Source: Combretum micranthum
Taxonomy: Eukaryota > Streptophyta > Magnoliopsida > Myrtales > Combretaceae
Reading direction: 5' to 3'
NCBI GenBank assembly: GCA_024138025.1
Contig: JAMXBD010001574.1
Span: 275,559-339,558, forward strand
DNA length: 64,000 bases
Positions 4,903-64,000 of this stretch are shown here, in pieces. Within the stretch, counting starts at the first letter, position 1; each line of letters starts with the position of its first letter. Under the pieces are notes generated by a model, which saw only the letters and a program-made list of their open reading frames with translations, was not told where the DNA came from and searched no databases. Position numbers and translations under genes: made by a program.

Positions 4903-5792
4903 ATGGAACAATCCATGATGCCCAATTCAGTTAAACCCACTCGTGTCCTAGCTTGGAATATTAGAGGCTTAAATGGCAAGAGAAAGAGAGACCCTGTTCT
5001 TGAAGCTCTCATCGAATATATGCTTGATGTCATTATCCTCATGGAAACAAAGTTGGATAGACAAGGAGTGGAGATCTTTTACTATCACTCCCAAATGGAC
5101 AACTACACACGCATTGAGTCAAATGGACAGAGTGGGGGTATGATGATTCTCTGGAACAATGCAGTGGTAGCTGTGAACTTTATCAAGCAAACATCTTCTA
5201 AAATTCATGCTAAAGTTCAAGTACAAATTTCTAACTCTCCCTCTTCTTGGTTTCTTCCGAATGTATATGGTCCTCCTAGTCCATCTCACAAACCAGCTTT
5301 CTAGCAAAACTAAAGAGACCATGCAAATTTTGTTGGGGGCAAACCTTGGATCATTCTAGGAGACTTCAATGATATAACTTAGAAATTCGAAAAGTGAGGT
5401 GGTACCGGTTTAAAAAAAAAAAATAGAGCCTCGCATTACCATTCTTGTTTGAATGATTGTCACCTTAAAGACATAAGTTACATTGGTCCGAGATTCACCT
5501 GGTCAAACAAAAGAGATTTGACCCATCTCATCTAATTCAAACTTGATAGAGCTTGGGCCAATAATGAATGGGTAAACCTTTACCCTGAAGCCAAGCTCTT
5601 TCACTTAAAAAACTGGGCCTCTAACCATTGTCCCATTCTTCTAAATACTCTGCCTACACCCTTAGCTAATGTCAGAAATCCCATTTTTAGATTTCAACCC
5701 ATGTAGTTTGATCATCCCACCTGTATTTGCCTAAATTCATGATATCTTGAGAGAAAGCCAATTCGATTGTGTCAAAGCCATTGAAGCCTTAC
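4903..5792 (+). pseudogene. LINE ORF2, endonuclease domain (5' part)
   Basis: This is the exonuclease-endonuclease-phosphatase (APE-type) domain that nicks the target DNA for LINE integration. The first 133 codons are open: LAWNIRGLNGKRKRD gives the N-terminal Asn motif and METKLD supplies the catalytic Glu. The frame then breaks, but GDFNDI (near 5360), IGPRFTWSN (near 5490), KLDRAWAN (near 5545) and an ASNHCPI-type motif (near 5620) mark the rest of the domain in order. The SDHxP histidine is conserved, although the usual SDH appears as SNH. Several in-frame stops occur after 5300. The coding stretch stops at 5792, where a solo LTR begins, and resumes at 9273. Confidence 0.85.
5788..5792. 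repeat. 5' target-site duplication (CTTAC) of the solo LTR
   Basis: CTTAC directly precedes the TG of the LTR and is repeated exactly at 9268-9272 after the terminal CA. Confidence 0.85.
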
Positions 5793-8700: not shown

Positions 8701-9267
8701 AATCCATCAAACATACGAAACCGGATAGTCGTTATAATGTTTGATCATATGATTGTTGCATTCATATGCTTGATTAATAAACTTGTTTGATTGTTGTTAT
8801 GAGTACTATTGCGAAAGAATATCTCACTAAGCTAGTCATGCTATACTCCTATAGACTTTTGATATTGCAGGATTACCTTTTGCACCCGAGACCATCTTGA
8901 TTTCCCCGGGTAGAATCCTCATTTTGAGAAGCTTTTGGAGGCAATCTATTTTGAAGTTATAGAGTAGATTTCTTCTAAAATCTTCAGCTTAGTTATGTTA
9001 TTTTTTTTTAACCATGTTATTAAGAATTATCGGGGGAATGCCCCTTAGAAGCTGTAAGACTTTTATTTCAATGATATTATATTAAGTGTTATTTTGCATG
9101 TTCCGCTGCCAATGTCTTAAAATGCATTACTCCACCGGTCTCCCTTTGTTGTGAATGTACGCCTTGTACCGATATGGAAGCTTTCGAGTGACTGAGGTAG
9201 TCATTCTTAAGTTTTAATATTGCGTACGGCGGGCTGTCACGTTTAGGGTACCCTCTGGGGCGTGACA
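5793..9267 (+). mobile_element. solo LTR (3,475 bp), probably of a Ty3/gypsy element
   Basis: The segment begins TGTAAGCCCC and ends GGGGCGTGACA, giving canonical TG...CA termini with an imperfect short inverted repeat. It is bounded by an exact 5 bp duplication (CTTAC). It contains no open reading frame of note and no second copy of either end, so it is a solo LTR left by recombination, not a complete element. A TATA box lies about 700 bp in. The long LTR and GCCCC/GGGGC ends resemble chromovirus (Tekay/Del-like) LTRs, which is family-level inference. The host LINE coding frame resumes in phase immediately after the second CTTAC, confirming the boundaries. Strand is assigned from the TATA box direction. 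Confidence 0.88.
6495..6503 (+). promoter_or_regulatory. TATA box of the LTR promoter
   Basis: CTATAAATA followed by CCCCCTTCCTCTTCC and a CA-rich start region is a textbook plant core promoter. It fits the U3/R boundary expected inside an LTR of this length. Confidence 0.65.
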
Positions 9268-9272
9268 CTTAC
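9268..9272. repeat. 3' target-site duplication (CTTAC) of the solo LTR
   Basis: Exact copy of 5788-5792, immediately after the LTR end GTGACA. Confidence 0.85.
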
Positions 9273-11120
9273 CTAGAAGGATGCAAGTTTGGATTAAGAA
9301 AACTCTTGGGAACCTAAAAATGGAAAAAGGTAATCTCATTGAAAATCTAGAAAAGCTCCAATTAGAAATCAAATCTAATCCCAATCAAAGGAATGTCAAT
9401 GAGGAGAAACTCTTGATAGAAAAACTTAACCAATGCCTTGATAGAGAAGAAGTCATTTGGAAAATGAAATCAAGATCTAAATGGATAACCAAGGGAGAAA
9501 GAAATACAAGATATTATCATTCGATCACCATCAATAGAAGAGCAAAAAACAGAATCCTTGCTCTAAAAATGAGACGGAGAATGGTATTATTACCAAAAAG
9601 ATATCACTATATTACCCTCTCCTATTTCACTTTCCTTTACCAAACTACTAGGGTAGCTGTGAATCGTGAAAACCCTTGTCATGACTTCTCTGTGGCTAGC
9701 CTCACTCCTGAACAAAAATCCTTTCTTGAGAAGCCTCTTAAGGATTGGGAAATTCTAAATGCATTAAAATAGATCAGTCCTTGGAAATCACCAGCTAAAG
9801 ATGATCTTCATGCTGCTTTCTTTCTTAAATGTTGGTCTTATGTTGGTGATTTTGTAAATTATCTAATTCAGAGCATTTTCAGCACTGCTACCTTACCCCT
9901 TTTTTTAAATCAAATACAAATCACCCTGATCCGTAAAGTCAAAGATGATAACATCCTAAAAAATTTTAGACCCATCAGTTTATGCACTATCCTTTATAGA
10001 ACTGTGACAAAGATCATTTCTCTCAGACTTAGACCCTACCTAGATGGTCTCATTCATCCAGCTCAATCCAATTTCATTCATGGGAGAAAAGGCACTAATA
10101 AAATCATTCTCTTAAATGAAATTCTCCATTCTCTTAATAAAAAAGAATAGGAAAAGTGAGTGGATGATAACAAAGGTTGATCTTGAAAAATCTTTTGACA
10201 AGATTGAATGGAATTTCATTTTTTGGGTCTCGGCTCCCTCAATTTCCTAACATAGATGATCAAACTTATTATTAGTTGTATCTCCACTACTTCCACAAAA
10301 GTTATTATTGATGGAATGCCGTCTCCTTCATTTCACCCATCTAGAGGCCTTAGACAAGGTGATCCCCTATCACCCTACCTCTTCATCCTAACCATGGATT
10401 TCCTTAGTCGTATGATACAACAAGAAATTGAGAGGGGTAAATGGAAATCTTTCAAGGTTAGAGGCTCTGATTTTAGTCTCTCACATATCATGTTTGCTGA
10501 CAATCTCATTCTTATTGCCAAAGCTGACAAAGAGAATGCTCTTTCCATACAAAATACTTTGGAGAACTTTGAACTCCTCTTTGATCTTTCAATCAACAAC
10601 CTCAAATCAAGCATCCTGTTCTCTCGATGTACTAATTCCCAAACCAAGCTAGATTAAAAGGTATTCTCAATTTCAAGGAAACAAAAGAATTGGGTAAATA
10701 CCTAGGTTTTCCTCTTGCTAATGGCAATAAAGTCACTAACCAGCAGCTCCAGAGTATTGTTGACAAAACACAATAAAGTTAAGTGGCTGGAAGGTCAAAA
10801 ACCTTAGTATGGCTGGTAGAATCCTTCTAGCAAAGTCTATGTTACAAGCTCTTCCTACCTATTATCTACAAGTCACCTCATTGCCTAATCTTTTCATCAA
10901 ACATTTGGATAAAATCAAAAGATCTTTTATCTAGAATGAACAAGAAGAACATTGCTATTCTCACTGGTTTTCCTAGGAATCCATCATTACACCCAAAGAA
11001 GAAGGTGGTTTGGGCCTTCTTAACCTAAAAACTAAAAGAAGGCTTGTGCTTTAAAAAATGGCATGAATGGAGAGTAGTAAAGTCAAATGGGCTCATCTAA
11101 TATAGTTAAATACAAAAAGC
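9273..11120 (+). pseudogene. LINE ORF2, linker and reverse transcriptase
   Basis: This part copies LINE RNA into DNA at the nicked target. The linker is open from 9281 for 163 codons and shows the conserved W-x3-SRxxWIxxGExNTRYYH segment (near 9460-9520). The RT follows in broken frames: RPISLC (near 9970), FIHGRKGTN (near 10075), KVDLEKSFDKIEW (near 10180), LRQGDPLSPYLF (near 10350), a catalytic box reading FADN (10493-10504) and a thumb region ending in GGLGLLNLK (near 11010). The FADD box of active enzymes is changed at its second Asp, which removes a metal-binding catalytic residue. Stops near 9772 and 10657 and several frame changes also disable it. Confidence 0.88.
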
Positions 11121-12560
11121 TTACAAATAATTCCCTTGACACAATTCCCCATCTTGCCTCCCCTCTTTGTAAATAGATCTTCTTTAGTCAGGACTCGATA
11201 AAAAACAAAGGATTCTACCTCTCAGGTGATGGGAAAACTACAAAATTTTGGAGGGATCCATGGGGAGGTCGCGAACCCTTAAACAACATCTTTCATGGTC
11301 CTCACACAGAAAATGCTGCAAAATTAACAGTCCACAATGGTTGGATCAATGAATTACAGTGTAATGAAGATCTTATGGGCTATGCTATCTCAAATTATGT
11401 CTGCAAGCTTATTGGTCCTATCCATCTCAACCACCTAACGCTTATTCAAAAATCATCAACCCCAATATCAAATGGGAGCTCTCTATCAACAATATTAATT
11501 TTAGTTTTACTAGAAATCAATTTTCAGACCATCCTTGGGACTGGATTTGGAAATCTCTCTTTCCTCCAAAAATAAAACTCTTCCTTTGGAGAGCATGTCA
11601 TAACAATTTGTCCACGAAAGATATTCTCAAGAGAAGAAACATTACATCGGATGCTTCTTGTCAAGACGTTCTTATTCAAATGAATCTATCTCCCATATCC
11701 TGAAAGAATGCCACAACATTACACATATTATTAACCTTTGGGAAACGATGCATGAACCAAACACACAAGTTAGAGCTTCTTGGATAACTTAGATAAAAGC
11801 AAATTGTAACATACCCAGTGCAACCCATTCCTAAACAAGAACACTCAATCAATTCCTTTTTGGAATTGCGCTTTGGAAAATCTGGCTATCCAGAAACTTT
11901 CTTGTCTTCAACCCCACAAGTACATCACATGATCTACACGAAGACATCAAGACATCAGCAAATGAGCTTTGGGCTCACATCAAACGAAAAAAAAAAAGGA
12001 TTTTTAATATTGAAATAATTAACCTTTGTTGGTGGCCGCCAAACCCAAACTGGTTCAAGATTAACACATATGCATCTATACATCCAACCACAGAAATGGA
12101 AACAATTGCAACAATTATAAGGGATGCCCAAGGCCGATGGATCACTGGAATTGCAAAAAGAATTAGGAAAGTGGACATCCTCATGGCCGACCTATGGGCA
12201 ATAGCATGGGGAATCCAACTGAGCCTACAAATGAACATTACAGCTTTAGAAATCAATTCCCATTCAAAAATAGCTATGCAATTAGTAAACGAACAACTGG
12301 AATCTATATGCTAATGTTATCTCCTTTTGCAGGGAAAGCCTATCGAAGCTGCCACTAAATAAAGTGCTTAACTACCCTAGAGAAACAAATAGAGTAGCAA
12401 ACGCCCTTACAAACGAAGCTCACTTGATCCTACTTGACACCATAATATATGACATGCCTCCATATGGCTTTTTGAACCTTTTAGATTCCAATGTATCCTC
12501 TTATGGTCTGTATAAAGACATAAGACACGATAGGAGATCTCTCGAAGATAGTCTCTAATG
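11121..12560 (+). pseudogene. LINE ORF2, zf-RVT and RNase H-like C-terminus
   Basis: The C-terminal part of plant L1 ORF2 has a Cys-containing zf-RVT region and an RNase H domain that removes the RNA template. Near 11530-11640 the frame reads WDWIWKSLFPPKIKLFLWRA, typical of zf-RVT. Near 12030-12300 an RNase H fold is visible: WWPPNPNWFKIN, then IIRDAQGRWITG, an A-D-L-W-A-I-A-W-G helix and LEINSHSKIA, where the usual LE-x-DS aspartate is replaced by Asn. The tail has NYPRETNRVANALT (near 12370), matching the IxRxxNxxADxLA end motif. Frame changes occur between these blocks. Confidence 0.8.
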
Positions 12561-28581: not shown

Positions 28582-30325
28582 CTAGGCGTAACTACTACTG
28601 CTGCTGCTGCTGCCTGCCCCACCTCCTCGTCCCCGTCTAACAAACGTGCAGGGTAATGGTGTGCGTTGATGGGGATGCTGCGTGGATGGGTCAATCTGTG
28701 TGAAAGTGTCCTCATCATCTCCACCAACACGACTATAACGATGAAATGGGACAAGGTCTGGCTCCACCTGCGTGATTCCCTCCCCCATATCATGTGAAGG
28801 CGATGGTCGCCTCTTTTGTGGAGCTAAGGGGGTATGGAACTCACTGTATAATTGGTCTAGCATAGGGGTATCCCCCAGATAAGTATATGAAGAAGACGGG
28901 CCAGGCCCATCATGAATGAGCTGTGGAGGAGCGGGCTCATTAAATACAGGTACATCGGACGGCTCAGGCTCATCTGTGACGTGAACATGTCGTGGCCGGC
29001 CACCCTGTCCCCGTACATGCCTCTTTCTATGTGGACGCCGCCTCTATATTAGCTAAGGATGTGGATCATCAGGTACTGGTGCTGGTGGTGCTGGATCATT
29101 TAAGTTTATTCCCATAAACTCATCCACTACACGAATGACCTCTAGTGCAGTAGATGGAGTGTTCTCTACCAACATGTATGGGACGCGACAAATGAAATAT
29201 GCCTATAAGTAAAAGAAAATAGGTGTATCAGGGAATGGAAAAAACACAGTATATGTCCATGTACATCTTATATAGTCAATGAGCTTACCATATAGCATAT
29301 GACAGCCCCTATGCGATCGATCCAGCACCAGGTGATCGAATGGAACCAATCAAAGTAATCATCAAAGGTGTTGGTGTCCATATGGATCACTTCCACAATC
29401 CGATCACGTCGACCATCCCACTCAGCTATCCATTTAGCGTGCTCTGCTTGCCAATTCCACTCAGAATGCCCTCGCATGTCAATCTCATGCAGGGCTCTCA
29501 TGCTGGCAAGCAGGTGGGGGATCCCCTGGAATCCCTCGAACTGTTTGATCACTTTATCTGGATAGTAGTGCTCTACAAGATAGAAGCAGACTAGGAGGAC
29601 CCGTGCATGCTAAATATCGCTGCCCGCATAGCAGTATGGAGGCGGGGAGTCCACGATAGCCCTATATGGTTCCCACACAACCTGTTCAAGACAAAAAGTA
29701 CAGTATTAATTGTGTAAAAGCTGCAACTAGTAGAGAAGAAGATAGTGGAAATCGTACCCGTTGATCAATCTGCCTGTCAAAACAGCCTCGATACTCAATG
29801 AGTAAGTGGGTGGCTATCCGGGTCACGTCAAAACGCAACCCTATGACTGAGGAGTGGGCGACCCTCTATGACTGGAGTAACCTGCCACCGCATCGGGACA
29901 ATGTGGGGGAAATGCTCCCAGACCCATATATGGAGGACAGCTAATGGTCCACCAATGTCTCATGTGTCAACGTGTGAAGCCAAGCAAAGCTGCATGTATA
30001 ACCATGCCAAAGAGGCCGTTCCACACGTGTACTGCTTGGCTCTCTCAAAATCCCGGAGTAACTGTAAGTACATCAAGTGGACATAATTGGACGACTTGTC
30101 CACAACAATGAATCCTCCAAGCAACAGCAAGATGTATGCCCTGGCATGGTGTTTGATCATCTGATCATCAGCATAGTCGGGTAGCACTCTGAAGTAGGTA
30201 TCTAAGCACGACATCCTCAGACAACCACCATCCATATGAGTCCCCGTCATAGGTCGAAGGCCAAGGAGCTCCTCACATAAATCATCCCAATCCAGCTGGG
30301 TCATGCCCGTAACTGCATATCCATC
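28582..30325 (-). pseudogene. plant mobile domain (PMD) coding region inside the MULE
   Basis: PMD proteins (MAIN/MAIL1-like) are found both as host genes and inside Mutator and gypsy elements; the molecular role of the domain in transposons is not established. Visible motifs in order: LDWDDLCEELLGLRP (near 30290), a YILLLLGG segment (near 30130), YLQLLRDFERAKQYTCGTAS (near 30050), SIxVWEHFPHIVP-like sequence (near 29910), a PYRAIV stretch (near 29670), VIKQFEGFQGIPHL (near 29530) and a basic, Gly/Ser-rich tail ending in RRGRGG (28600). Frames change between blocks and at least one probable intron (around 29690-29755) is present. The N-terminal third of a typical PMD is missing: the homology starts abruptly at the transposase C-terminus. 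Confidence 0.75.
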
Positions 30326-32835
30326 TTGTTTTGATAGCGCTTCTCCTTAGGTCTACCCTTTTTCCTTATAAGACTCGGGTGGGGGTACCATTTCGCAATA
30401 TCCAAAGGAGTCTAATTACACTTATCAGTTGTCGGTATGAATGAATGGCCATACACCTTAAGCTAGGTATCCCACCTCTACTATTGTCCCTCCTAGGCAA
30501 CACAATCCATTTGCAGTGTTCCTATGACAGCCATTGCATGTAAGCATGGAATTCTATATGTCTGCCACTTGTTACAGGTACATTTGCCTACCCTCAACTG
30601 TACTTTTTGTATGTGGCCCCCCTTCTGACCATACATCGTAGGGTGCGGAGCGATTATAACTTCAAATATCTGTTCATGATAGTCAAAACAGGTTACTCTA
30701 TGGGCACTTGAGATGTTGTTCCATCTCTCAAACTTATTCGCAGCAAATCCTATGCGCAACTTCCCCATAACCATTGCCTTGGTTGCCTCCATCATTTGCT
30801 TATTGAAGATTGAGTTGAAATTATAGAATGTTTTTTTAACTAACGCTGTCACGGGTAACTTTTTATGACTGAATTGTAACTTTCAGCCATGTCTTTTGTA
30901 CCTATCTTAAACATCACCGCTTCATCGTAACATAAATTCCACATGAATTGAGGCAACTGACGAAAATATCGCGATGTCCAAGGACTATTTTGTAGTGCTG
31001 CATTGAAGTAGCCATGGAACTTTCTTCTCTAGGTTTGGTATACAGCTCTTTTAATTATTTCCTTACATTCCTTACTTTTAGCTTTGGAATTGAAATTGCT
31101 AGCAATGTGCTGGATACACCAACGCCAAGGCTATCCTCTAGGCCACAGAGCATTCTCACCCTCAACCGCACTCTTAATCCCGACATGCCGATCCGATATC
31201 AAGCATATATTTGATCGGTCCTTGATAACATGTTCTAACGCTTTCACAAGGAACCAACTCCAAGTGTCCGCGATTTCCTTGTCAACAATAGCATACACTA
31301 GTGGAACAATATGATTTACCCCATCAACTGCTACTGCAATAAGTAATTTGTGGTTATACTTGCCATACAAGAAGGTTCCATCCACTATGATTACAAGTCT
31401 GCAAAGAATTAAAAGATTAAACTTAGTTCATAGATGTTATTGTTTTAACTAAATTTGATCATATATGGAGAACATACCTGCAGTACTAGAATGCTTCAAT
31501 GCAAGGCCCAAAAGCCAAAAATAGCTTGTCTAAAAAGACGTGCCTGGCGATATCTGAATCAATGGTTCTCCACTCATATTTTTTTCCAGATTAGCCTCAG
31601 TTATTGCATTCAGTAAATGTGTGAGCTCCACATATGAATCTTCCCAACTTTCATAGACCTACTCAATAGCTTTTCTCTTCGCCTCACGAATTCTCTTTAT
31701 GTGAACGTTGTATCCAAACTCCTTTAAGATGGTCAATTGCAAGTCCTTCGCCCCCACATCTGGTGAGTTACGGATCTCCAATATGATGCACCTAGACATG
31801 CTAGTGGAGTCCAGTTGAGAGTGATCCTGTCCAGTTATCTCATCCAAGCAGGTGTGGGGTCCTTCATATTTAGTGATGTGAAACCACTCACCATGTTTCT
31901 TGTAATTGCCTTTGAGTCTCCACTTACAATCTCTCTTATGAGTATCAGTACATTTAACTGCCCATGATCTTGGGTCCAAGTCCACCACCTTGAAATTGTA
32001 ATGATTCGATATGTGCCACATTTTAACTACCAGTATCAGATGATCTTTAGTCTCAAACCGCATCCCAACGTTGAATTCATCACCGAAACTCCAATTCTCA
32101 GTGCTCATTTCCTGCTCATCATCATATGCAACATAACCACTACCAACTTCAATAATAAAAAATGGTATTGGCACCGAGCTCCCTACTACATCAACATCAA
32201 TGGGAGAACAAACAGGTGCCAGTCATTTCTCCTTGGTTGCACTTCTAGAAAAGTATCTTCTTCGGGGCAAGCTTCTACATTATCATTTCCACCACCATCG
32301 TAGTCATCACTTGATTCACTTGTCGTGGAGCCCATAATGGCATTTGTATCACGACCGCCTGTCAATTTCGGTGTACACATTTGAAAGTTACCCATGTTCA
32401 GCTGTTCACTCCCTATTGTTTGAGCTGGAGTAGAGTTCGAGTCTACCAAGCCTTGACTCCCAACATTCCCATGAATGCCCATTTCACCTGCAGTGCCTGT
32501 GACAACTCATTTTCGAATATATGAACATAAACAGCTACTGACCCTTCAGTGTACACCAACATCTCCTGTGCATCATTATCATCAGTCACTAGAATTATAT
32601 CATAACGTAATGTCCTATCTCCAATAGCTACCCCATGGTATAAATCCACCTGATGTGCACACTTGTTTATCTTGAGTCTATTGTAAATGATGTCCACTAT
32701 TTGCTCATATGATGAGTTTCTACTAATACTGACCACAACAACTGGCCACTTATCATAACCAAAACCATCGTCGCCTTGTATAATATTCCTATGAGCGTAC
32801 GTATAAACTTCATCGACCTTAACTATATTTAACAT
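30326..32835 (-). pseudogene. MULE transposase remnant (MuDR family)
   Basis: The protein excises and inserts the element. The N-terminal 130 codons (32835-32443) are an N-terminal region of the MULE type. After a frame change, 32482-32186 is a Ser/Asp-rich linker. After another, 32174-31659 carries the MuDR DNA-binding domain (FxxKDHLILVVKMWHISNHYNFKV, then the C-x4-C...H pattern around DTHKRDCKWRL and GPHTC). The DDE core starts at 31385 (MDGTFLYGKYNHKLLIAVAV, first Asp; ISDRH, second Asp) and reaches a WCIQHIASNF CxxH motif near 31110. 30852-30493 is the C-terminal SWIM zinc finger, CTCNKWQTYRIPCLHAMA. A GRPKEKR basic end lies near 30345. Stops (for example at 31659 and 31131) and several frameshifts rule out activity. 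Confidence 0.88.
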
Positions 32836-33459: not shown

Positions 33460-33724
33460 GATCTCGTCTCTTCAAGAGACGAGGTCAGTAACTTAATGCC
33501 TCGTCTCTTGAAGAGACGAGGTCTGTAGAGGAGGAACCTTATCTCTTCAAGGGACAAGGTAGCTCCATGTTTTTGATCTCGTCTCTTGAAGAGACAAGGT
33601 TAGGCACTAACGACCTCGTCTCTTGAAGATAAGAGGTCAAGTTGTCCAAACTTGGGATTAATGTCATCATAGTGGCATTTTCGTAATTATTTTCAAAAAA
33701 TAATAATATTATATTCCTTTTCCC
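33460..33724. repeat. right inverted terminal repeat with five palindromic units
   Basis: Palindromes at 33460-33486, 33498-33523, 33536-33560, 33575-33600 and 33612-33638 share the GTCTCTTSAAGAGAC core. They are followed by about 85 bp of AT-rich end sequence that is the inverted copy of the left end. Confidence 0.85.
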
Positions 33725-39560: not shown

Positions 39561-39960
39561 TTGAGGTTTTTTTTTAATGGTAGATTACGCCAGAAAGCAT
39601 CAACGTTTGGAGTTAAGTTCATTTAAAGTATCAACATTTCAAATAGTTAATAAAAGGAATTAACGTTTAGCAAAGTGTATAAAATGGGGTATCAATATTT
39701 TGTAAATTCACTTAAGGCATCAACGTTTGGATTAACTTTCAATTTAGTTTCCTTAGTTTTTGTTAATGGTTAAATATTAATACCTTATTTGACTCACTTT
39801 GCAAGACGTTGATACCTCTTTTTAACCACTTGAAACATAAACACTTTAAATGAATTAATCTCCAAATTGATTTTTTCTTTTTAAAACTTAAAACGTTAAT
39901 ATCTTAAATGAATTTATCTCAAAACATTGATACTTTTTATATAATTTATCTTTTTTATAT
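39561..39960. repeat. inverted-repeat element with ATCAACGTTT sub-repeats
   Basis: Words such as GCATCAACGTTTGGA and their inverses (ACGTTGATACC) recur at roughly 35-40 bp spacing and fold around a centre near 39,760. No coding capacity. A related structure lies at 47.4-47.7 kb. Confidence 0.6.
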
Positions 39961-41000
39961 GTAAAATGATCCTATTTGGGGTCATGAATCAACTTACAAA
40001 TAGTTTACAATTTATTAACCCAACCACAAATATAGTTTGGTTCATGGTTCAATTGGTTTTTGTGCATAGCCATCACGAGGGCACCCTTTTGGTGTATGCT
40101 CAGCATAGAGAGTCTTGTTATCACTTGAACTCTACATTGACTTTTGCTTTGTGTTTTTACATGAAAGAAAGATCATCCCTCCATTGATGATCTACCAATA
40201 AAGAAGGTTAGATAGCGAAAACTCGATCTAAAGAAGAAGATAGTTGGACCTCCTCATCTCAAAGAGGTGTCGTCGGCGTCAGGGACGAGCCTGTATTATG
40301 TCCTCCTGTAGTCGATGAGGCCACCAAAATGGATAGAGGAAGGCTATAACCTGTGTCATGGAGCAGCCTAAAGTGGGGTTTGTCACATGTTGCAACAAGT
40401 CCAACAGATGAACTCTACATTAGACTTATATGAGTGGAGCCATATATTAGCAGAGGATAAAGATGGAAACGATCCTAAGAGCAATGATCTATCTAAGAAA
40501 GAAAAGTTGACCATCCTTCTCCTCTTTAAATAAAGGTGATCATAACTTCTGTTGAAGCAAGTATTGGTATTTGAATGACTTGATCTCTGCTCCCAACAAT
40601 GATAAACCAAATTAACCTTGTGCAGCTCCTATATTTCCTAAATTTGATAGTGTTTCTCCAACAACTCCTTCTCCTACCTACGCCAATACTGGAAAAAAGA
40701 AAGAAGCTTAGGACATGGTTTCAAAGTTAAGTTATCATTCGGAGACTACGAAATGATCTTTAGTAGCACCATCGTTTCACCCACCTTCTTGTTGTTCTTT
40801 TTGTATTGTTTTTAATTTATCAAATGCAACATGGTCGGAATATCGTCTTAACACGTGTAATTACTTAAATGAAATCAAATGGTTATGTTTTCTTCTCTCA
40901 CTATTTTCTACATCCCATTGAACCTTCTGTTATATTTAATTCTTTTAGTGAGTCATAATTTAATTATAGAGAACTAAGTATTAAGACGCCTCTAGGGGCA
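39961..41000. other. intergenic, nothing identified
   Basis: No coding region can be supported. 40.2-40.4 kb is slightly GC-richer. It may be the 3' part of the adjacent decayed gypsy element, but no LTR was recognised. Confidence 0.5.
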
Positions 41001-47404: not shown

Positions 47405-47725
47405 ATGATGACATTTTTTTAATATTATATGGATAAATTACATAAAAAGTATTAATATATAAAAGTAGATTTATTTAAGATATTAACATTTTGATAGGTT
47501 AAAAGGAATCAATATTTGAGATAAATCCATTTATGGTATGAACATTTTGAGTAGTTTAAAACATGAATCAACGTTTCACAAAATAAATCATATTAGGTAT
47601 CTATGATTGATCGTTAAGGATAGTTAAGTCAATTATGGCATCAAGATCATGACATATTGATACCTCATTTAGTCATTTTGCGACTGCATGAAACATTAAT
47701 ACCTTAGTTAAACCTATCCCTAAAC
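47405..47725. repeat. inverted-repeat element related to 39.6-39.9 kb
   Basis: Words like ATGAATCAACGTTT and TGATACCTCATTT are arranged in opposite orientations around about 47,600. The stretch is non-coding. Flanking sequence is intergenic. Confidence 0.5.
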
Positions 47726-54405: not shown

Positions 54406-56456
54406 CTAGCTTGAGTCCCCACCAAGCAGTTGCAAGAGATCACCCTTTTTCATCTTCGAGAATCCCTTTATCCCACGAGATTTAGCCATGGCCCTTAAAT
54501 CTTGCAACTTTAATGCACTTAAATCTCTATCTCCAATGGTCCCTGGCTTGTCATTACTTTCACCATTATCGACAGCATCATTATCTGATGATTCTCCAGT
54601 CAACATTTCTTCATAAACACCATCCTCAAGAAGTTGGGAATTTACTTGTGAATCTTCTTCCAGCTCAGACTCAGATTCAGGCTCCACTTTCAAATCATAT
54701 TCAGGCTGTGACTGTGGCTGAGCCTCAGCTATCCCCCCTCTACTATTCAAATCAGTTGGTGAAACAGAATTGGCAGTGACATCACTGATTTTAACTTGCT
54801 GGTATTTCACTCGAGGGACAGGTGATTTGCGACGGAAATTTGAGGCTGGCCTGCCCAACGACGGGGTCACTGGAAGTTCTGGTTCATCTCCAAGTATGTT
54901 ATTTGAATCAAAGAGACTTTGGCCTTTTTGTTCAAAAGAAAGAACACTCTGTTCTGACTGTTCCAAATTACTCTCCTTGCTGCTCCACACCGTATTTTTC
55001 CTCTTACCTTGTTCAACAGAATGCTTCCTCAATAACTTAAGAAGGGAATCCACTGTCTCACTCTCCTTTTCCTTAACTTTTCCTCTTGTGGATTCAGCTT
55101 TACTTTCTTCTCTCAATGCAGCTCTTTCCCGAAGCTGAGCCTGGACCTTTCTGAATAGTTCAACAATCTCTTTCTCTCTAGGGCCAGGTGCTGCAGTTGC
55201 TTGAGATTTGGAAGAACTGGAAAGAGAAAGTAATGGACCATTCTTTGAAGACAACATATCTGTTTCATCTTGGTTTTCAAAACTGTCTCTGTCCTCCATT
55301 TTCTTATTGTTCCTATTGCGCGAAAAGCCATACTTACTGTGCCTTGAGAAGTCAGGGTTTCTTCGATGGCCACTGGAACTTGCTGCACAGGAAAATGACG
55401 GCCTGTTAAGTGCAAACCTCAAAGATGTAAAACTGACCCGTGGGCAGTTTCTGTAATCACTGAAAGTAGAGGACGGAGTTCTATCGCCTGCTCTTCCAGG
55501 AACACCAGAACAAGGGATATATTTTCCACTGGGTGGTCCATAACCTGCAAAATGACATAAAGCATATTGTAGTGAGAGCTGCTATGCACTGGGCTAAGTT
55601 GATGAGTACTTATGAAACAGATACCCCCAATGATTATTCAAGAATGGTAACTTGACACAAAATGAACAGATGCCTGCCCTGCCCCAATTGGCAGCTGATT
55701 AGGGGAGGTCATATGGAAGGCTAAACTGCACGCTTCCATCCCAAAGAAAGAAACTCGAACAACATGGCTACCTATCCTGCCCCACTGCCATTCCTAACTA
55801 ACATCTTAAGCGGATTTAAAACAGCCATAGCTAATACAAACCCACGACTCTTATTGTTTTCCATCTAAGTAAATAATCCATTTCACCTTGATAAACCGGT
55901 ATTTCCCCGGGACAAGGGGTGTGGTACATGTGTCTTGTGGAAGTGGGTTCGACTAAGGCTATTCATTGGAGAAAGTTGTCTCATACCCTAGATACTCCAA
56001 ACGGACTCCATGCACCGGGTTAAGCTGACCCCAAGATAATTTTCATAGGATTTATAGCTACAAGCAAATCGAAGTTGCTGTGAGAGTTCCTAGGGTTTAT
56101 ATTTAAACCAGCCCCTAGGGTTTATACCAACACTGATCAATCAACATGTTCAAAATCATATTTTCAATAGCAGGAAAACATCACTCATCATCCGTCCCGA
56201 CATAGACTCTCAAGGTGCAGGCTTTCTTCCAATTTACCAACAACTAAAGCTGGGAAGTAAACAAATTTGAATTAAAAACTATCGAATAGAACCCAGAAAA
56301 AACAAAGAATTTTATCATACGACGGCGAAGTCCATAATACTATGCAGCAATCTTCAGCAACAATACAACATTAACATGGGTACCCACAAACCACAAATAG
56401 AGAAAGAGAGAAAGAGAGATACCCGATGCGAGATTCCTTAATGCAGCTATTTCCAT
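54406..56456 (-). CDS. RHON1: RHON1-like Rho-N domain protein, chloroplast RNA binding
   Basis: RHON1 binds chloroplast RNA through a C-terminal Rho-N domain and supports RNase E-dependent processing and plastid transcription termination. Two exons: 56456-56423 (MEIAALRNLAS plus one base) and 55544-54406, joined by a GT-AG intron, giving 390 residues. The N-terminus is Ser/Arg-rich, as expected for a plastid transit peptide. SSGHRRNPDFSRHSKYGFSR (near residue 70), MLSSKNGPLLSLSSS and PGPREKEIVELFRKVQAQLR then ETVDSLLKLLRKHS are family signatures. An acidic middle follows, and the last ~40 residues (LSALKLQDLRAMAKSRGIKG, then FSKMKKGDLLQLLG) form the Rho-N fold. The frame is intact throughout. 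The start is supported by an in-phase splice and a CT-rich leader just upstream. A rice relative is known as BP-73. Confidence 0.93.
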
Positions 56457-57089
56457 GGAGACGGATGGTGTAGAAGGAGATTGGAAAACTAACAGTGAGA
56501 GCACAAGAAAAGAGAGAATAGAAGAGCGCAAGAGAGAGAAGCACTACATACAACTGCCCAGCACCAGCTCCTGCTTCACCTTTTCCTCTTCCCCTAAAAC
56601 CCTGATGCAACGCCGTCGTTTCAATTATCTTGGCTTGATAACTCACGATTATCTTCTTATTTTTAACTATTATAATGTTTTATTTATCTTAAGCTTAAAG
56701 TCCACTCTAGCTATAGAAATTCATCCCAATAGGATCGATTATGTCTATTTTGTATAAAATTTAAATATGTCGACATAATAAAATTAAAATATAATATAAT
56801 TTTTAAATCAATCTATATAATGAAATTATAATTTAAGATAAGTTTGAAAAAAAAAATTATAATCAGTATGAAAAACACGCAAAAGGAAAAGAGAAAATAT
56901 ACACTATATTATAATCATTACTATTAGATTAATTTTAAATTGCTTACTATGTTCCTAATAATATATATATATATATATATACACATGCGCATGCATAAAT
57001 TATTAAAACAATTAATTCTACTTTATATATGTTCATTGATATCATGCCAGTAGAGAATTATTGAGAGAATAAGCTAAGATTGTATTGAC
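56457..57089 (-). promoter_or_regulatory. leader and upstream region of the RHON1-like gene
   Basis: On the - strand a CT-rich leader lies directly upstream of the start codon (to about 56,540). Beyond about 56,640 the sequence is AT-rich with a TA repeat near 56,960-56,980. The Harbinger element starts only 634 bp upstream of the start codon, so the promoter is short or includes element sequence. Confidence 0.45.
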
Positions 57090-57285
57090 GGGCCGTTCAC
57101 TTCATTGAATGGAATAGCAATGTAATGAATAGCCATTCCTAATGAATTGCATAAGGATGTAATATGTTGTGAATATGTATGATGTTGTTCACTTGGATGT
57201 AATGAATTGCTAATACATTGTTCACTTGATTGAATTAAAACAATGAATAGCTCATGAATTGGTAAGACAAATACCAAAAATGCCC
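57090..57285. repeat. left terminal region with three GTTCACTT sub-repeats
   Basis: GTTCACTT occurs at about 57095, 57187 and 57221, each followed by a GATTGAAT/GGATGTAATGAA-like word. The outermost copy forms the terminal inverted repeat. Confidence 0.7.
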
Positions 57286-57783
57286 TTATTTAATACATGT
57301 ATTAATTTATATTTTACAAGATATATAATTAAACATATATTTATATATTTAATATATATTAATATTAATATATTTATAAATATAAAATATATTATTATAT
57401 GTAAAATAGATTCTATATATATTAATAGAATATTATATATGGTATAGATATTACATAAAACAAAGGAAAGTACAAAGTTAAAAATGATGTTGTCAATATA
57501 AAGACTCGAGAATATTAAAAAAAAACCTAAATTTTAATTCCAACAAACTAAAAATTTAATCTCATCAATAATATGATGAAAAATGATTTATACAATAGTG
57601 CAACTTCATTCGCTATAGCATATTATAAAATGTATCCAAAAGCATCAACATATCACAAAAGGATCTATAAAAGTAAGTATCCAAAAGCAACCCAACATAA
57701 TCCAATTCATGAGCTCTCACACTATGTGGACTCTAAAATGTGACTAAGGTGATCAAAAGCAACCTAATGTAATCCAATTGACA

Positions 57784-58778
57784 TTATGCGGACTCCAAAA
57801 TGTCCCTAACATAATCCAAACGATCTTTTGATTCAAGTTCATAAAGCACAGCTAAATTGTCCTTCTGCTTAGGCAACTTGATCAAAGCAGCTTTCAACTC
57901 TTGTTGTGTTAGACCCTCAATTGTTCGAAGAAATTTGTTTAATCTTTTCACTTCCCTTCTTCCTTCATCAACTGACAAACGCTTCACAGCACGATCAATA
58001 CTCTTCTTCATATCCCTCATGCCAGTCTCAAAGCTTTTAATAACAGATGATAGCTCAGATATTGCTCCATCTCTAAACAAGCTTCGCTTCCTTTTTGTAC
58101 TAGAATGAGTAACACTATGATGAGATGAGTGATCGTCTTCTTCATCTCTCATTGGCAACTCATCTGCAACATCTTGTATTGTTGCTTCTTCTCTATTCAG
58201 CTCTTCAATGACATCCTCAGCAGTTTGTGCATCTTGACCCGTGGCCCGATCTTTTCCATATATCATAGAGAGCTCTTCTAGGTAAGGGAAGCTCCTATTC
58301 ATAAAAACAGCAGCATCTCTATGGCTCTGCAAATTAAAAAAAAATATATTAAAAACATTAAGAAGATCATTACAAGACAGCATCAAATCCTCACCATCTC
58401 TACATAATATAATATTAGAGAAATGAGTTTACATACCAATAAGTATGCATCCCATACTTGCTTCTCAGCAGTCACCATCTTCCGGACCGGATCCCAACCA
58501 AACCCACTAGTTGTTTTCCCATAGACCATGTCATAAACTATACTCCAATCTTTCTTCAAGGTTCTAATGCGTGATTCAATATGTGGTTTTGCTTTCAAAC
58601 CACAATTGGGTAACTTGATGAGAAGCGTCCTCTCTAATTCATTGAGATATCCACTCCTAAAGCCAGTGTCAGCATTATGTGTTCCATTGTTGTACAATTC
58701 CACCATACACTCAACCAGTGCATTGTCTTCAATAACTGTCCACTTTCTTTTTATACCCTTTGTTACTTTAGCTTCCAT
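57784..58778 (-). CDS. MYB/SANT-like protein of the Harbinger element (ORF1)
   Basis: Harbinger elements encode a MYB/SANT-like partner that binds the element ends and brings the transposase into the nucleus. Two exons, 58778-58437 and 58326-57784, with a clean GT-AG intron in phase 0, give 294 residues with no break. Residues 1-110 hold the MYB/SANT-like domain: KRKWTVIEDNALVECMVELY, an LLIKLPNCGLKAKPHIESRI stretch, and LKKDWSIVYDMV with a GFGWD motif. The middle is acidic with a KRKR basic patch. The C-terminus is a helical, Leu/Lys-rich region ending in YVRDILESA. It is intact, in contrast to the neighbouring transposase, and may still supply binding function in trans. The GFGWD-type motif and final Leu-rich domain are typical of plant transposon-derived proteins. 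Confidence 0.88.
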
Positions 58779-58987
58779 TGTCTTCAATATAAATTAGATA
58801 TCGCAAAAAAACATGATAATATAAGAATAACAATATAATAAATTGCAATAAAAGAAAACAATATAATACGAAGATTTGAATTTCATACTTTCAATTGACA
58901 AACCATAAAAGTCATATAGAACAAAAATACATCAAAAAGAATGTACAATGAAATTAAACATAGCTTAGAATTTCACTTATATCTATT

Positions 58988-60378
58988 CTAATTATGATTC
59001 CCTCCACTCCAATCATTGAACATTTGAGTTGCCAGTTGTTGTCTCCAAGTTGTCCAGGCATCATTACTCCCTAAGGTTGCAATAAGTTCATCTTCATTAT
59101 CTATATTATTTTCTTCTATGGAATTCATGCCATCCTCAAGAGGGTCAAAGGCCATCTCTGTCCTAATGAAGTTGTGGAGTAAACAACAGGCAAGTATCAC
59201 ACGATTATGAATTTTTGCTGGATAAAATGACGGACTTCTTAGAATGCTCCATCTCATTTTAAGCAAGCCGAAGCACCTCTCAATCACATTTCGGGCAGAT
59301 GCATGCCTCAAATTAAACAATTCCTCAGGAGATCTTGGTTGATGACCTTGGCGCCATTCATTTAAATGATACCTTTGACCCCTAAATGGTGCCAAGAATC
59401 CCTCACAATTGGGATAGCCTCCATCAACCAGATAATAACATCCTATATGAGTAAAGAAGAAGTGAATAATGTTTTAACAACGACACTACTTAAAGAAAAC
59501 TAAATTCAAAATTTTGTGAGTTACAGCAAATCATACCCTGTGGTACTTTAAGGCCATTTCTCCTAGTGATTGCATCCCGAAGTATTCTACTATCAGCAGC
59601 AGAGCCCTCCACCCAGGCAACACATAAACAAAAAGCATATTTGGTGTACAAACACCCAACACATTAGTTGCAATCTCATTTTTTCTAGTTCTATATCGAG
59701 GCTTATCTTTCATTGGCACTTTAATTGGGATATGTGTTCCATCCAAAGCACCTAAGCATTTCTAGATAAGACAAAAATATGGGTAAAGTTTAGAATGATT
59801 TTTCATTAAATTTGTATGAATTTAATGATCAATATGGGATTTTTTTACCTTGAAATATTTCCATCGCTCATCGATACAGTTCTCAGGAATGGGTTCAGGC
59901 CTCTTCAATAGGTGATTGCTCAATCGGAGAGTGGCATTCAATACACTGTGAAAATATTTACTTACAGTTGCTCCAGACCTCCTAAAATTATACTTAATCA
60001 CCCTATTCTTCACATGGTGAGCAAGTATATGCAAGAACATTGCAACTTGTTCATCCACATGCATATTCCTTGTTGATTTTAGCCCTCCTATGCCTTTAAC
60101 ATCTCACAAAGTTTGAAAAAAGCATGCCTATCTAATCTCAATTGTTCAATACATGTCACATTATCACTATGAACAAGTCTCCTAATATATTCACGCTGTT
60201 GATAGGAATTCAAACTATAAGACCGTATACGAGGTCGGTAGGAATGCAAGACCAAAGCATATAAAAAGGAAATTATGTGGCAAGCAACGTTACAATATTC
60301 CACACCTAAAGCTAAAAGAAAACAAGCGATTTTCTTTTTCCTCCGTCGATCATCAACATGTAAACAAACTTGATCCAT
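58988..60378 (-). pseudogene. PIF/Harbinger DDE transposase with two frameshifts
   Basis: The nuclease cuts and joins the element. Exons: 60378-59849, 59761-59537 and 59442-58988, with GT-AG introns. The N-terminal helical region includes FFKLCEMLKA and HVDEQVAMFLHILAHHVKNR with RRSGATVSKYF. The catalytic residues are all present: Asp in LGALDGTHI (near 59735), Asp in YYLVDGGYPN (near 59420) and Glu in NVIERCFGLLKMRW (near 59285). A LLHNF motif (near 59170) follows. One base is missing near 60088 (after KLCEMLKA) and one near 59608 (after YVLPGW), each shifting the frame; the matching sequence continues in the other frame. The start at 60378 is the first ATG. Without those two changes the gene would be complete, so very recent decay or consensus error is possible. 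Confidence 0.88.
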
Positions 60379-60671
60379 CACTACGAAAATGACAAATATT
60401 ATTCAAATAGGGCAAGCAAGCAAAGATATATTTTTAGAATGCAATTCCATCTTATGGACATATCAAGAAGGGATAATTATTCATGTAACTGCAGTCTCTG
60501 AAATCATAATGTAAAAATTATGGCACATTTGGTCATGCAGAGATTCTAGAGTGAACTGAGACTTGGTATTCCTTCTTGAATTTCTACTTTTTCCTTTAAA
60601 GAAGATTCAGCAAAAGATAGACTGGAAGCATTTGCAAAAATGAAGATAAAGAAATAGTAGCAATCACATAC
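60379..60671. other. non-coding stretch between transposase and CAMTA exon
   Basis: Nothing identifiable. It may be intron sequence carried along with the captured CAMTA exon. Confidence 0.4.
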
Positions 60672-60770
60672 TTGGTGGCCTGTTTGGAGGCTCGGGAGTT
60701 ATCTGAAACTTCAGATAATTGCGCAGAATTTCACAGATTTCAGCAGGTCGCAACCATCGATGTTGGGCTT
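60672..60770 (-). pseudogene. captured CAMTA CG-1 domain exon
   Basis: CAMTA proteins are calmodulin-binding transcription activators with an N-terminal CG-1 DNA-binding domain. This 99 nt segment reads AQHRWLRPAEICEILRNYLK then FQITPEPPNRPP on the - strand, the highly conserved start of CG-1. It is bounded by an acceptor (TTTATGTAG) and a donor (CCACCAA/GTATGTG), with phases (2 nt, 32 codons, 1 nt) that fit one internal exon. No other CAMTA exon is in the window, so this is a lone exon inside the Harbinger element. The frame is open, suggesting a recent capture or a relaxed but unbroken copy. Confidence 0.85.
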
Positions 60771-61238
60771 CTACATAAACATCATGACAAAAAATATAAG
60801 GAACATGTTGCAAATGAATGAGCACAACGAGATCTGAAGGGACAAGAGGCTGGGTCTTCTATTAGCATTGGGAGATTTAATAGGACAAGATGCTTGGAAC
60901 TATATTAGAAAATATTTAAGACTCAAGGGCACATTCATGTACTACGATATTATGGAGACCAGACCAGAGCAACTTTAGGAAAAAAAAAAAAGTGCAACAA
61001 AACAAAAGATGATATAAACTAATAGAGAATGACAATTATAACCCATATGAAAGTGCAAGGAAAGTATGTCCTATTAAAATATTCACCGCATTAGCCGCGT
61101 AGGGCCAACAATGTAAAAATGAGAAGAAGAGCAGAGCAGATTTTTCACTCTAAATACGTTTATCTATATATATATATTCTAAATAAACGTAATAATCCTA
61201 CAAAATAAACATACACCTCCATAATCGTACTCACGTAT
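60771..61238. other. non-coding stretch between CAMTA and LRR segments
   Basis: No coding resemblance. The first part is probably intron sequence upstream of the CAMTA exon. A TA-rich run lies near 61,160-61,180. Confidence 0.4.
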
Positions 61239-61646
61239 TTATTTCTTAACACATTGATATAGGGATGGGCAACTATGTATGCTAACTATGTTTAGACATT
61301 CTAATTCCTCTAGTCCTCGAAGCTCTATGAGTTTCTCACAACCGTCCAGGATCAATTCCCTGAGTTTCCTTAGCTTTGACAAATTTGGTAAATTGTCAAT
61401 TTCTCTACAGCCAGTGAAGTTCAGATATTCCAATGTAACTACTTCTCCAAGACCCTCCAGAAAACGCAACTTCTTACAGTCGGAGAGACTCAAATATATC
61501 AACCCTTCTAAGGGAGATAGATCTGGCAGTAATTGCAAGGATGTGCAAAGATGCATCTTGAACTTCTCCAACTGTTTTAGTCTTGGTAACTCTGGTATCC
61601 TTTCAAGAGATCCACATCCTTCTATGTTCAACTCGGTTAGATTCAA
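61239..61646 (-). pseudogene. captured leucine-rich repeat fragment (disease-resistance type)
   Basis: A 135-codon open stretch on the - strand consists almost only of LRRs of about 23 residues: LTELNIEGCGSLERIPELP, LIYLSLSDCKKLRFLEGL, LEYLNFTGCREIDNLPNLS and LRELILDGCEKLIELRGL. The LxLxGCxxLxxLP pattern is typical of the C-terminal LRR part of TIR-NBS-LRR immune receptors. There is no NB-ARC, TIR or other receptor part anywhere in the window. Its first codon is an internal position, not a real start. It ends at a stop after SCPSLYQCVKK. It is a fragment and cannot be a receptor by itself. Capture by the Harbinger element is inferred from its position. Confidence 0.8.
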
Positions 61647-62132
61647 AAGTCACCGTCTTCGGTGTAGCAGTTAAGCTCTCCGTTGATCTGAACTCACCTA
61701 TGCCATCACTAATCGATCAGTCAACTAAACTGATTAGGATTCCTCTGTCCATTCGGCTTAGCTAATTATAGAGAAATCACAATATTTTCGGTTCTTACTG
61801 AATTATGTCTTCTCAAGCTTTGATGGTCATCCAAAAACATGGAACTAGAGCATCACCTGAATTGAAATTCCTGGGGACATATACCATCCCAAAACCTTTT
61901 TGGGGTGTGTGTGTGTTTCTCTCTTAGTTCTGAGCAGGGTAAAACGAAGGACGAGAAGTTTGGTATGAGTCATGGGATATTTCATCGAATATCTATTTTG
62001 AAACACCTACTTCATCATGAATTCCAACAATTTTGGGTTTAATGAATAAGCACCGTGTGATTGGAAAAACATAGAGATGGAGCAAAAAAAGTGCCAGTGA
62101 AAATGAAAAATGTAGAAATCTCTCTTTCTTCA
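61647..62132. other. non-coding stretch between LRR and OVATE segments
   Basis: No coding resemblance seen. GTGTGTGTGTTTCTCTCTTAG near 61,905-61,926 on the + strand is a chance splice-like site with no exon attached. Confidence 0.4.
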
Positions 62133-62380
62133 TTATTTAGAACTACAAAACAAAGCATTCCAAATATCTGTAAAAACTTCAACAATTACTCCATGATGAT
62201 GGTCCGAGTTCAAGCTCAGAAAACAATGAAGCAAACCCTCCAATTCTTCTTCACTAAACAACTCTTTCTCCACAATCATCTCCGCCATTGAAGTCCTGAA
62301 ATCACTGTACGGATCACTAGACTTCTTAACCACAGCAAAACTATCATCTAAATTCAAACTCCCATTACTATTTTCTGACA
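62133..62380 (-). pseudogene. captured OVATE-domain C-terminus (OFP family)
   Basis: OVATE family proteins are plant transcriptional repressors defined by a ~60-residue C-terminal OVATE domain. The - strand frame reads FAVVKKSSDPYSDFRTSMAE, MIVEKELFSEEELEGLLHCF, LSLNSDHHHGVIVEVFTDIW and ends NALFCSSK-stop, covering the domain from start to finish. The N-terminal part of an OFP (Arg-rich region and variable linker) is absent: upstream of about 62,380 the frame enters non-OFP sequence and a CA/TA microsatellite. OFP genes normally have no introns, so this is a 5'-truncated piece. A TGTGCTAG just upstream could act as an acceptor. Confidence 0.88.
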
Positions 62381-62445
62381 CTAGCACACAGACAGAATCA
62401 TAAATATGAAGGATAAATGAATAATAAATCCTCTCTAGACACACA

Positions 62446-62476
62446 CACACACACGCATATATATATATATATATTT
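62446..62476. repeat. CA and TA dinucleotide repeats
   Basis: A run of CA units followed by TA units marks the upstream edge of the OVATE fragment. Confidence 0.9.
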
Positions 62477-62771
62477 GTGAATTATAACTACTCAGTACTG
62501 GTTAGACTCCGTCATTTACAAAGGCATTGCCTAATCCCCAAAGGAAAAACCTAAAAATTAATTAAAAGAAATGATGATGATGATCATCATCATAATCATC
62601 ACACATTATTTAGCCCTGAAGCAGCAACAATTCGTATTGGTAGAGGATCCATTTTGAGGATGAAAATGAAGCTGACACACCGTCTCACCCATTAACACAA
62701 TTGTTACAAGCATCAAAGCCAATAGACACAGAGATGAAAACAATGAAGAGAGAGAGAGAGAGATTTCTTAC

Positions 62772-62815
62772 CTCCATCAAAGCCAGTAGAGAGCAATGGA
62801 GCTAGGGTTTGAAAA
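62772..62815 (-). other. leader-like exon near the right end of the Harbinger element
   Basis: On the - strand, CAAACCCTAGCTCCATTGC through CTTTGATGGAG is followed by a strong donor, GTAAGAAATCTC. AAACCCTAG is a common plant leader word. It lies about 290 bp inside the right end, upstream of the captured segments and the transposase, where the promoter-proximal exon of the element would be expected. The transcript has not been seen. Confidence 0.4.
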
Positions 62816-62889
62816 AAAACTGGACAAGTAGTTTGGAAGAAAGAGTAGGTTGGATAAAAGTGTGGTTGATGGATGTGATTATTTAATTA

Positions 62890-63101
62890 TAGCAGGGGTA
62901 TTTTTGGAATTGGATAATATTAGTAGTTGTTGAATTGTGATTCTTAAGTCCATGAAATGAATCCCAATTACGTAAAATAAAGAATACGGATTCAAGGCTG
63001 AATACCTATTACGGGCCTAAAAGCAAACTAAACAATGTAATAGAGGTCCAGTAAGTAATAAGCATGTAATGGAATCAGAATTCCACTCAAGTGAACAACC
63101 C
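62890..63101. repeat. right terminal region of the Harbinger element
   Basis: The complement reads GGGTTGTTCACTTGAGTGGA, then CATTACATG and, about 200 bp in, TTCCAAAAATACCCCTGC. This parallels the left arm (ACCAAAAATGCCCTT near 57275). Confidence 0.7.
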
Positions 63102-64000
63102 ATGAGTGTTTTGTGGAAGGTCTACAAACGAATGGTAGATTTTAGATAATCGGGATGTTACCCAGTATGATTATTTTGATATTTAAATTACTAATAGAAG
63201 TAGAAATAAATAAAGACAAATCGAGTACAAAGAGAGTTCATATGGTTTTTACCGGAGGCTCTCTAGGGTTTTTTATGGTGGATAAAATGAGTTTTTAGGC
63301 AATTGTTTTTAGCCTCAATAGTTATTATGAGTAGTTGTCCTTAATAAGATAACCATTGTTAAGAATTTAATAGAATATAATTTCTTATTAAAACACATTC
63401 GGAGACCTTCGAGATTAAATTAAGAATGGTGAGCAACTTGGGATAGGTAGAAAGAATGTTTTGTCTTTCCAAAACTCTTTTGACTCTTTTAAGAGGTCGA
63501 ACATGGGTCTTAATAGGTTAGTCCATGGCCTTATGAAGTTGGACAACACTTGAAAAGGCTATTCCAAACTTACTTATCATTAGAATATAACATATTCGTT
63601 TGGTATTTTACCTTAATTATATAATATGAGAATGAAAGTGGTAGTATGATGTACATTATTGATTATATTGCTATTACTATGTAAATTTTTTCATATCTAG
63701 GTTTATTCCATTCCAGTAAATCAAATGTAATATAAAAAATTAAGATCCAAAATTTTCATTATTATCCTTTTCTTCTTTCTTTCGATCTTACTTTTTATGT
63801 TGAAAGTACCAAGAACTTTTATATTCCCATTAATGGGACAATATAATCAATTATCTGATTATTAAAATAAATATAATCAATATATTAAGTATTTCAATGG
63901 GGTGATTATAGCTATGTATAAATTTGAGCCATTAAATAACCGATGTGACTAGTCCAGTTAAAAAACACAACGAGACATAAATATTTTCTCAAAGTACCTA
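63102..64000. other. intergenic flank
   Basis: No supported gene or repeat boundary; AT-rich. Confidence 0.6.

Follow-up and report, generated by a model that had tools for sequence, protein, structure and literature searches.

Capture of host sequence by PIF/Harbinger transposons has already been described in grapevine, where copies of Pifvine-3 (Harbinger-3_VV) measure 5.8-6.7 kb and very often have a 5' region of up to 3.5 kb that corresponds to neither open reading frame (ORF) and mostly matches host sequence, exons and introns included; some of this captured DNA is common to several copies, and its sources were found at high identity (PMC2528002). Here we describe a further example of this known kind. 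A 64-kb stretch of DNA from Combretum micranthum (contig JAMXBD010001574.1; hereafter the window) contains a 6.0-kb PIF/Harbinger-type element, at about 57089-63102, which is broken; the interval from its transposase gene to its right end contains fragments of three host genes unrelated to one another (Table 1). The cargo fragments, the DDE transposase and the Myb/SANT gene ORF1 are all on the minus strand, and the Pfam domains together with this common strand bear out the preliminary description of the locus as a single Harbinger-type element that carries, on the strand of its transposase, fragments from three unrelated host genes. The element resembles Pifvine-3 in its combination of a PIF transposase with ORF1, in its size and in its long host-derived 5' region, here 2.7 kb with a host exon and intron-like sequence; it differs in its possible TGA target-site repeat and its terminal inverted repeats (TIRs) of 13-14 bp, where grapevine PIF elements have mostly TAA or TTA and 20-35 bp (PMC2528002). 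We think it probable, though well short of certain, that a PIF/Harbinger element in a dicot took up, by transduplication, segments of genomic DNA from three host genes into the interval between its own right end and its transposase gene.

Other systems resemble this element in part. Pack-PIF elements, which are Pack-TYPE elements of maize and rice, likewise have host coding DNA between PIF-type ends, and maize Pack-TYPE elements include DNA captured from several loci; that study defines Pack-TYPE elements as non-autonomous and classes transposase-matching elements apart (PMC8903248), whereas the element described here keeps a whole, though broken, coding module of transposase and ORF1, and so falls outside the Pack-TYPE definition. 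Like Pack-MULEs, it is a DNA transposon that combines several fragments of host origin, but its transposase is of the Harbinger type and long TIRs are absent. The Turmoil-1 Harbinger of C. elegans also took up two protein-coding sequences, although these lie inside 760-bp terminal repeats and the host is an animal (PMC2572040). Since Pifvine-3 and the multi-locus maize Pack-TYPE elements are precedents, the initial view that three-gene capture by such an element would be unusual is not supported. What it adds to the record of capture by PIF elements that keep their coding genes is a three-gene case from outside grapevine.

Membership of the PIF/Harbinger superfamily is evident from a DDE transposase, a Myb/SANT second gene and terminal inverted repeats, all of which are present. 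DDE_Tnp_4 (PF13359) was detected in two minus-strand ORFs (58988-59473, E 6.9e-15; 59531-59761, E 1.3e-5), and Myb/SANT (PF12776) in ORF 58383-58793 of the same strand (E 3.4e-13). The joined transposase exons align over their whole length with five plant relatives at 56-63% identity (best database match: 63% identity over 99%), and residues D185, D236 and E309, which we take to be the catalytic ones, are invariant in this alignment. Exons 1 and 2 each contain a frame break, and both breaks could be assembly errors. Because of these two frameshifts the transposase is not coding-competent as sequenced, and this copy, judged from that sequence, cannot make its own transposase; the earlier impression of a coding-competent Harbinger is not supported, although ORF1 is open. 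The frameshifts bear on the autonomy of the element, not on its superfamily membership.

The 120 transposase relatives listed include 33 proteins that have both DDE and Myb/SANT domains. DDE precedes Myb/SANT in all six of these 33 that were scanned with Pfam, and a crude motif check gave the same order in 26 of the 33 and the reverse in none, one motif being missing from the other seven. A seventh scanned protein, P0124, from outside the 33, has a zinc knuckle and no Myb/SANT domain at the cut-off. The coding module of our element is thus complete and follows this usual order, with the captured pieces added on its 5' side. Two further searches, one with the transposase alignment against bacterial and archaeal genomes (167 pattern matches, no confirmed relative) and one with the exon-3 ORF against viral contigs (two pattern matches, no confirmed relative), were not of plant collections and are uninformative.

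Along the transcript, the order of the cargo is an OFP8-like C-terminus, an LRR segment and a CG-1 exon. The Ovate domain (PF04844) is complete, with 58 of 58 profile positions matched in ORF 62133-62501 (-) at E 1.9e-26, and the best match to the fragment, among candidates limited to about 67-213 residues, is a pomegranate protein with 70% identity over 67% of the query. LRR families match ORF 61239-61649 (-) with a best E of 7e-9; the 5' edge of this homology, near 61645, was judged by eye. CG-1 (PF03859) was found in ORF 60664-60858 (-) at E 7.6e-7. When the 322 GT and 350 AG sites of the element were scored with a plant splice matrix, the CG-1 match proved to begin at a candidate acceptor (rank 27 of 350), which is also the start of the Pfam profile, and to stop, with 80 of the 116 profile positions left unmatched, at a candidate donor (rank 8 of 322); intron-like sequence flanks it on both sides. 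Homology that breaks at a donor, between intron-like flanks, is the mark of captured genomic DNA. The 99-nt segment presumably represents one whole exon of CAMTA genes. A search of the PDB with the CG-1 ORF gave no match up to E 0.1.

These three fragments are among 15 stop-to-stop ORFs, each of at least 50 codons, in the interval from the right end to the start of the transposase. The other twelve have no Pfam domain above the cut-off, with matches to DMAP1 and Cep57_CLD_2 falling below it at near E 0.05, and Rfam at gathering scores gave no match in the window. One part of the cargo, 61650-62130, is of no recognised origin and has no domain that we could find; it may hold further captured pieces.

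The limits of the element are marked by several features. Exact matches to GGGNNGTTCACTT occur only twice in the window, at the element ends 57090 (+) and 63101 (-); with up to two mismatches there are 13 matches, which is chance level (11.5 expected). The TIRs have 11 of 13 bases identical between the ends, and GTGAACNNCCC, at up to one mismatch, is found within the element at the two ends only (window total 3, against 5.4 expected). On both strands of the 64 kb, the box CCAAAAATRCCC occurs just twice, as a mirrored pair 184 bp inside the left end and 194 bp inside the right end. In dinucleotide shuffles it occurs on average 0.015 times per window and at least twice in none of 200, a statistic that is post hoc, the motif having been picked after it was seen. 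If the element is cut at 57090 and 63101, as it had been at first, the bases that adjoin GGG and CCC differ and there is no target-site duplication (TSD), but shifting each end one base outward places TGA on both flanks; the ends perhaps each lie one base further out, at 57089 and 63102. With the offsets kept symmetric between -2 and +2, limits that were chosen afterwards, 1.3% of 100,000 random pairs gave a TNA repeat and 9.8% a repeat of any 3-mer. As a TSD, the TGA repeat is weak evidence, suggestive and not proof.

Table 1. Features of the PIF/Harbinger-type element, in order along the window
Feature	Position	Strand	Basis or remark
Possible 3-bp target-site repeat TGA, left copy	57086..57088	.	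offset scan
Left terminal inverted repeat, (C)GGGCCGTTCACTT	57089..57102	+	
Two further GTTCACTT words, left subterminal region	57187..57227 (at 57187, 57220)	+	
Left subterminal box, CCAAAAATGCCC	57274..57285	+	184 bp inside end
ORF1, Myb/SANT-like protein, two exons (58778-58437, 58326-57784), open	57784..58778	-	Pfam, exon joining
DDE transposase, three exons (60378-59849, 59761-59537, 59442-58988), full length, two frameshifts	58988..60378	-	
First base (T) after candidate acceptor TTTTCGTAG	60380	-	two bases before transposase ATG; rank 29/350
Captured 99-nt CAMTA CG-1 exon, flanked by candidate splice acceptor and donor	60672..60770	-	Pfam, splice scoring
Captured LRR segment of plant resistance-type gene, 136-codon open frame	61239..61649	-	Pfam
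Captured C-terminus of OFP8-like gene, with own stop codon	62133..62399	-	Pfam; homology certain from 62342
Leader-like exon, ending GAG/GTAAGA	62772..62860	-	donor rank 1/322; 5' limit guessed
Right subterminal box, CCAAAAATACCC	62896..62907	-	194 bp inside end
Right terminal inverted repeat, (T)GGGTTGTTCACTT	63089..63102	-	
Possible 3-bp repeat TGA, right copy	63103..63105	.	offset scan

A number of observations weigh against the capture of these fragments by a single element. The two ends are alike little past their first 13 bases, bases 14-240 being matched as well by 219 of 1000 shuffles and the whole 240-bp ends by 13 of 1000, and random pairs of windows equalled or exceeded the end pair in 14, 23, 10 and 19 of 500 cases at 60, 120, 220 and 300 bp respectively. 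The TIRs, at 13-14 bp, are below both the 20-35 bp of the grapevine PIF families and the 25-50 bp quoted in PMC2572040. For TGA to flank the element, both ends must be shifted outward by one base, and the terminal bases are then unlike (C and T). The evidence for a TSD stays weak because a scan of 182 offset pairs yielded, besides TGA, a second repeat, TGT (6 and 5 bases out), which is about the chance number of 3-bp matches, and TGA can be suggestive at most because most PIF repeats read TTA or TAA. As to splicing, the 5' edge of the CG-1 exon is set by the proposed acceptor and lacks independent support, since the Pfam profile itself begins there, and the acceptor at 60380 ranks no higher than 29th of 350.

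That the right end might belong to a different element was raised in the preliminary description as a result that would tell against a single Harbinger, and this possibility is weakened by the mirrored subterminal boxes and the TGA repeat, but still stands. In a composite of neighbouring insertions, the left end and coding genes would derive from one Harbinger insertion and the right end from another of the same family, with the DNA between them, fragments included, enclosed in place and perhaps never mobile as a unit. The difference between the ends after about 13 bases is in its favour, and a published model explains the growth of Pack-TYPE elements by the fusion of adjacent insertions, with a maize Pack-PIF example (PMC8903248). 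Against this, the TGA repeat fits both ends, though weakly, and a capture step would be needed in any case, because three unrelated gene fragments within 1.8 kb would not be ordinary host sequence. We think such a composite origin unlikely. An insertion between the right end and the transposase of a Helitron or Pack-MULE that already carried the three fragments seems to us decidedly unlikely. Maize Helitrons are reported to have captured fragments of many genes, and rice Pack-MULEs to contain genic DNA from several loci (PMC8903248), but neither strand of 60390-63101 contains a hairpin followed by a CTRR(T) end, in a scan that we judge strict because it found none in the whole window either. 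Nor does the element contain any inverted pair of at least 40 nt, of which the window has six; among the 25 longest of the 83 shorter pairs at 56900-63400, one lies wholly inside the cargo, and that is a 27-nt hairpin of 70%.

It would also be conceivable that host pseudogenes sit beside a Harbinger whose true right end is near 60.5 kb, the terminus at 63101 being a chance match or unrelated. Such an end might be sought at 60556, where GTTCACTC, one mismatch away from the TIR core, is the closest minus-strand word to that core in the interval from the transposase to the right end, but this word lacks the GGGNN start. Within the element, moreover, the restriction of GTGAACNNCCC (up to one mismatch) to the two ends and the position of the mirrored subterminal box, which is at the right place for the end at 63101, both argue against this arrangement, and we hold it to be highly improbable.

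If capture by a single element is accepted, the anatomy of the element suggests a simple and testable reason for the tolerance of its cargo, namely a position inside a leader intron. The leader-like exon that had been proposed is present, as sequence ending in the best-scoring of the 322 donors, at 62772, about 330 bp inside the right end. Upstream of this donor are a TATA-like stretch (62879-62891), from which the 5' limit of the exon (62860) was guessed, and then a pyrimidine-rich leader. Because the fragments lie between this strong donor and the acceptor that precedes the transposase ATG, we infer that they are located in a 2.4-kb leader intron. The right end would then hold a promoter and a short non-coding leader exon, and capture would have taken place via template switching during repair or via fusion of neighbouring insertions. 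The cargo would be tolerated because normal splicing would take it out with the intron and leave the transposase message unharmed, and a copy with both ends might be moved by a sister copy. Extending this to PIF/Harbinger transposases at large is a conjecture that we put forward as doubtful: their leader intron may act as a tolerated cargo bay, from which captured exons are usually spliced out and in which exons with splice sites could be trapped into transposon transcripts. If this were true, capture there would not stop transposition, and the Pifvine-3 cargo, in its long 5' region and common to several copies, would fit as well. A full-text search for leader introns together with Harbinger returned two papers that, judged by their titles and the opening of their abstracts, concern other subjects, which is weak evidence that the idea is unpublished within the library searched. 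The review PMC13317346 contains neither the word 'Harbinger' nor 'intron'.

What such transcripts might encode can be predicted from the joins. In the joined transposase message, the single ATG of the leader would open a two-codon ORF before the transposase start. Two joins, of the leader to the CG-1 exon and the transposase and of the leader to the OFP exon, have the same frame open, but this frame lacks a start codon; that both should share an open frame has a chance of 1 in 9, and we do not claim it as design. Inclusion of the 99-nt CG-1 exon would leave the transposase frame intact. A chimeric RNA is possible, but a chimeric fusion protein is not expected, since the leader, as cut, has no AUG that enters the CG-1 or OFP frame. 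The donor site of the leader lies within a short direct repeat (62701-62726 and 62765-62790), whose copies are 64 bp apart and 81% alike over 26 nt.

Elsewhere in the window, the gene adjoining the element (54406-55581, minus strand) codes for a Rho-N protein, whose top-scoring relatives, at 54-55% identity, are from Syzygium and Eucalyptus; together with the pomegranate match of the OFP fragment, this points to a dicot, most likely of the Myrtales. A decayed LINE-type element at 4903-12314 (+) retains endonuclease, reverse transcriptase and RNase H-like (RVT_3) pieces, as identified with Pfam. A MULE-like region at 29960-32222 (-) has a plant mobile domain (PF10536), a SWIM zinc finger and a sub-cut-off match to a MuDR DNA-binding domain, all on one strand, and may represent a MULE that carries a plant mobile domain. 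At 33460-33638 there is a 64-nt repeat, in two copies 83% alike, made up of palindromic GTCTCTTCAAGAGAC-like words. Inverted arms of 93 nt at 39874-39966 and 47416-47508, 74% complementary and 7.4 kb apart, are possibly the ends of another element.

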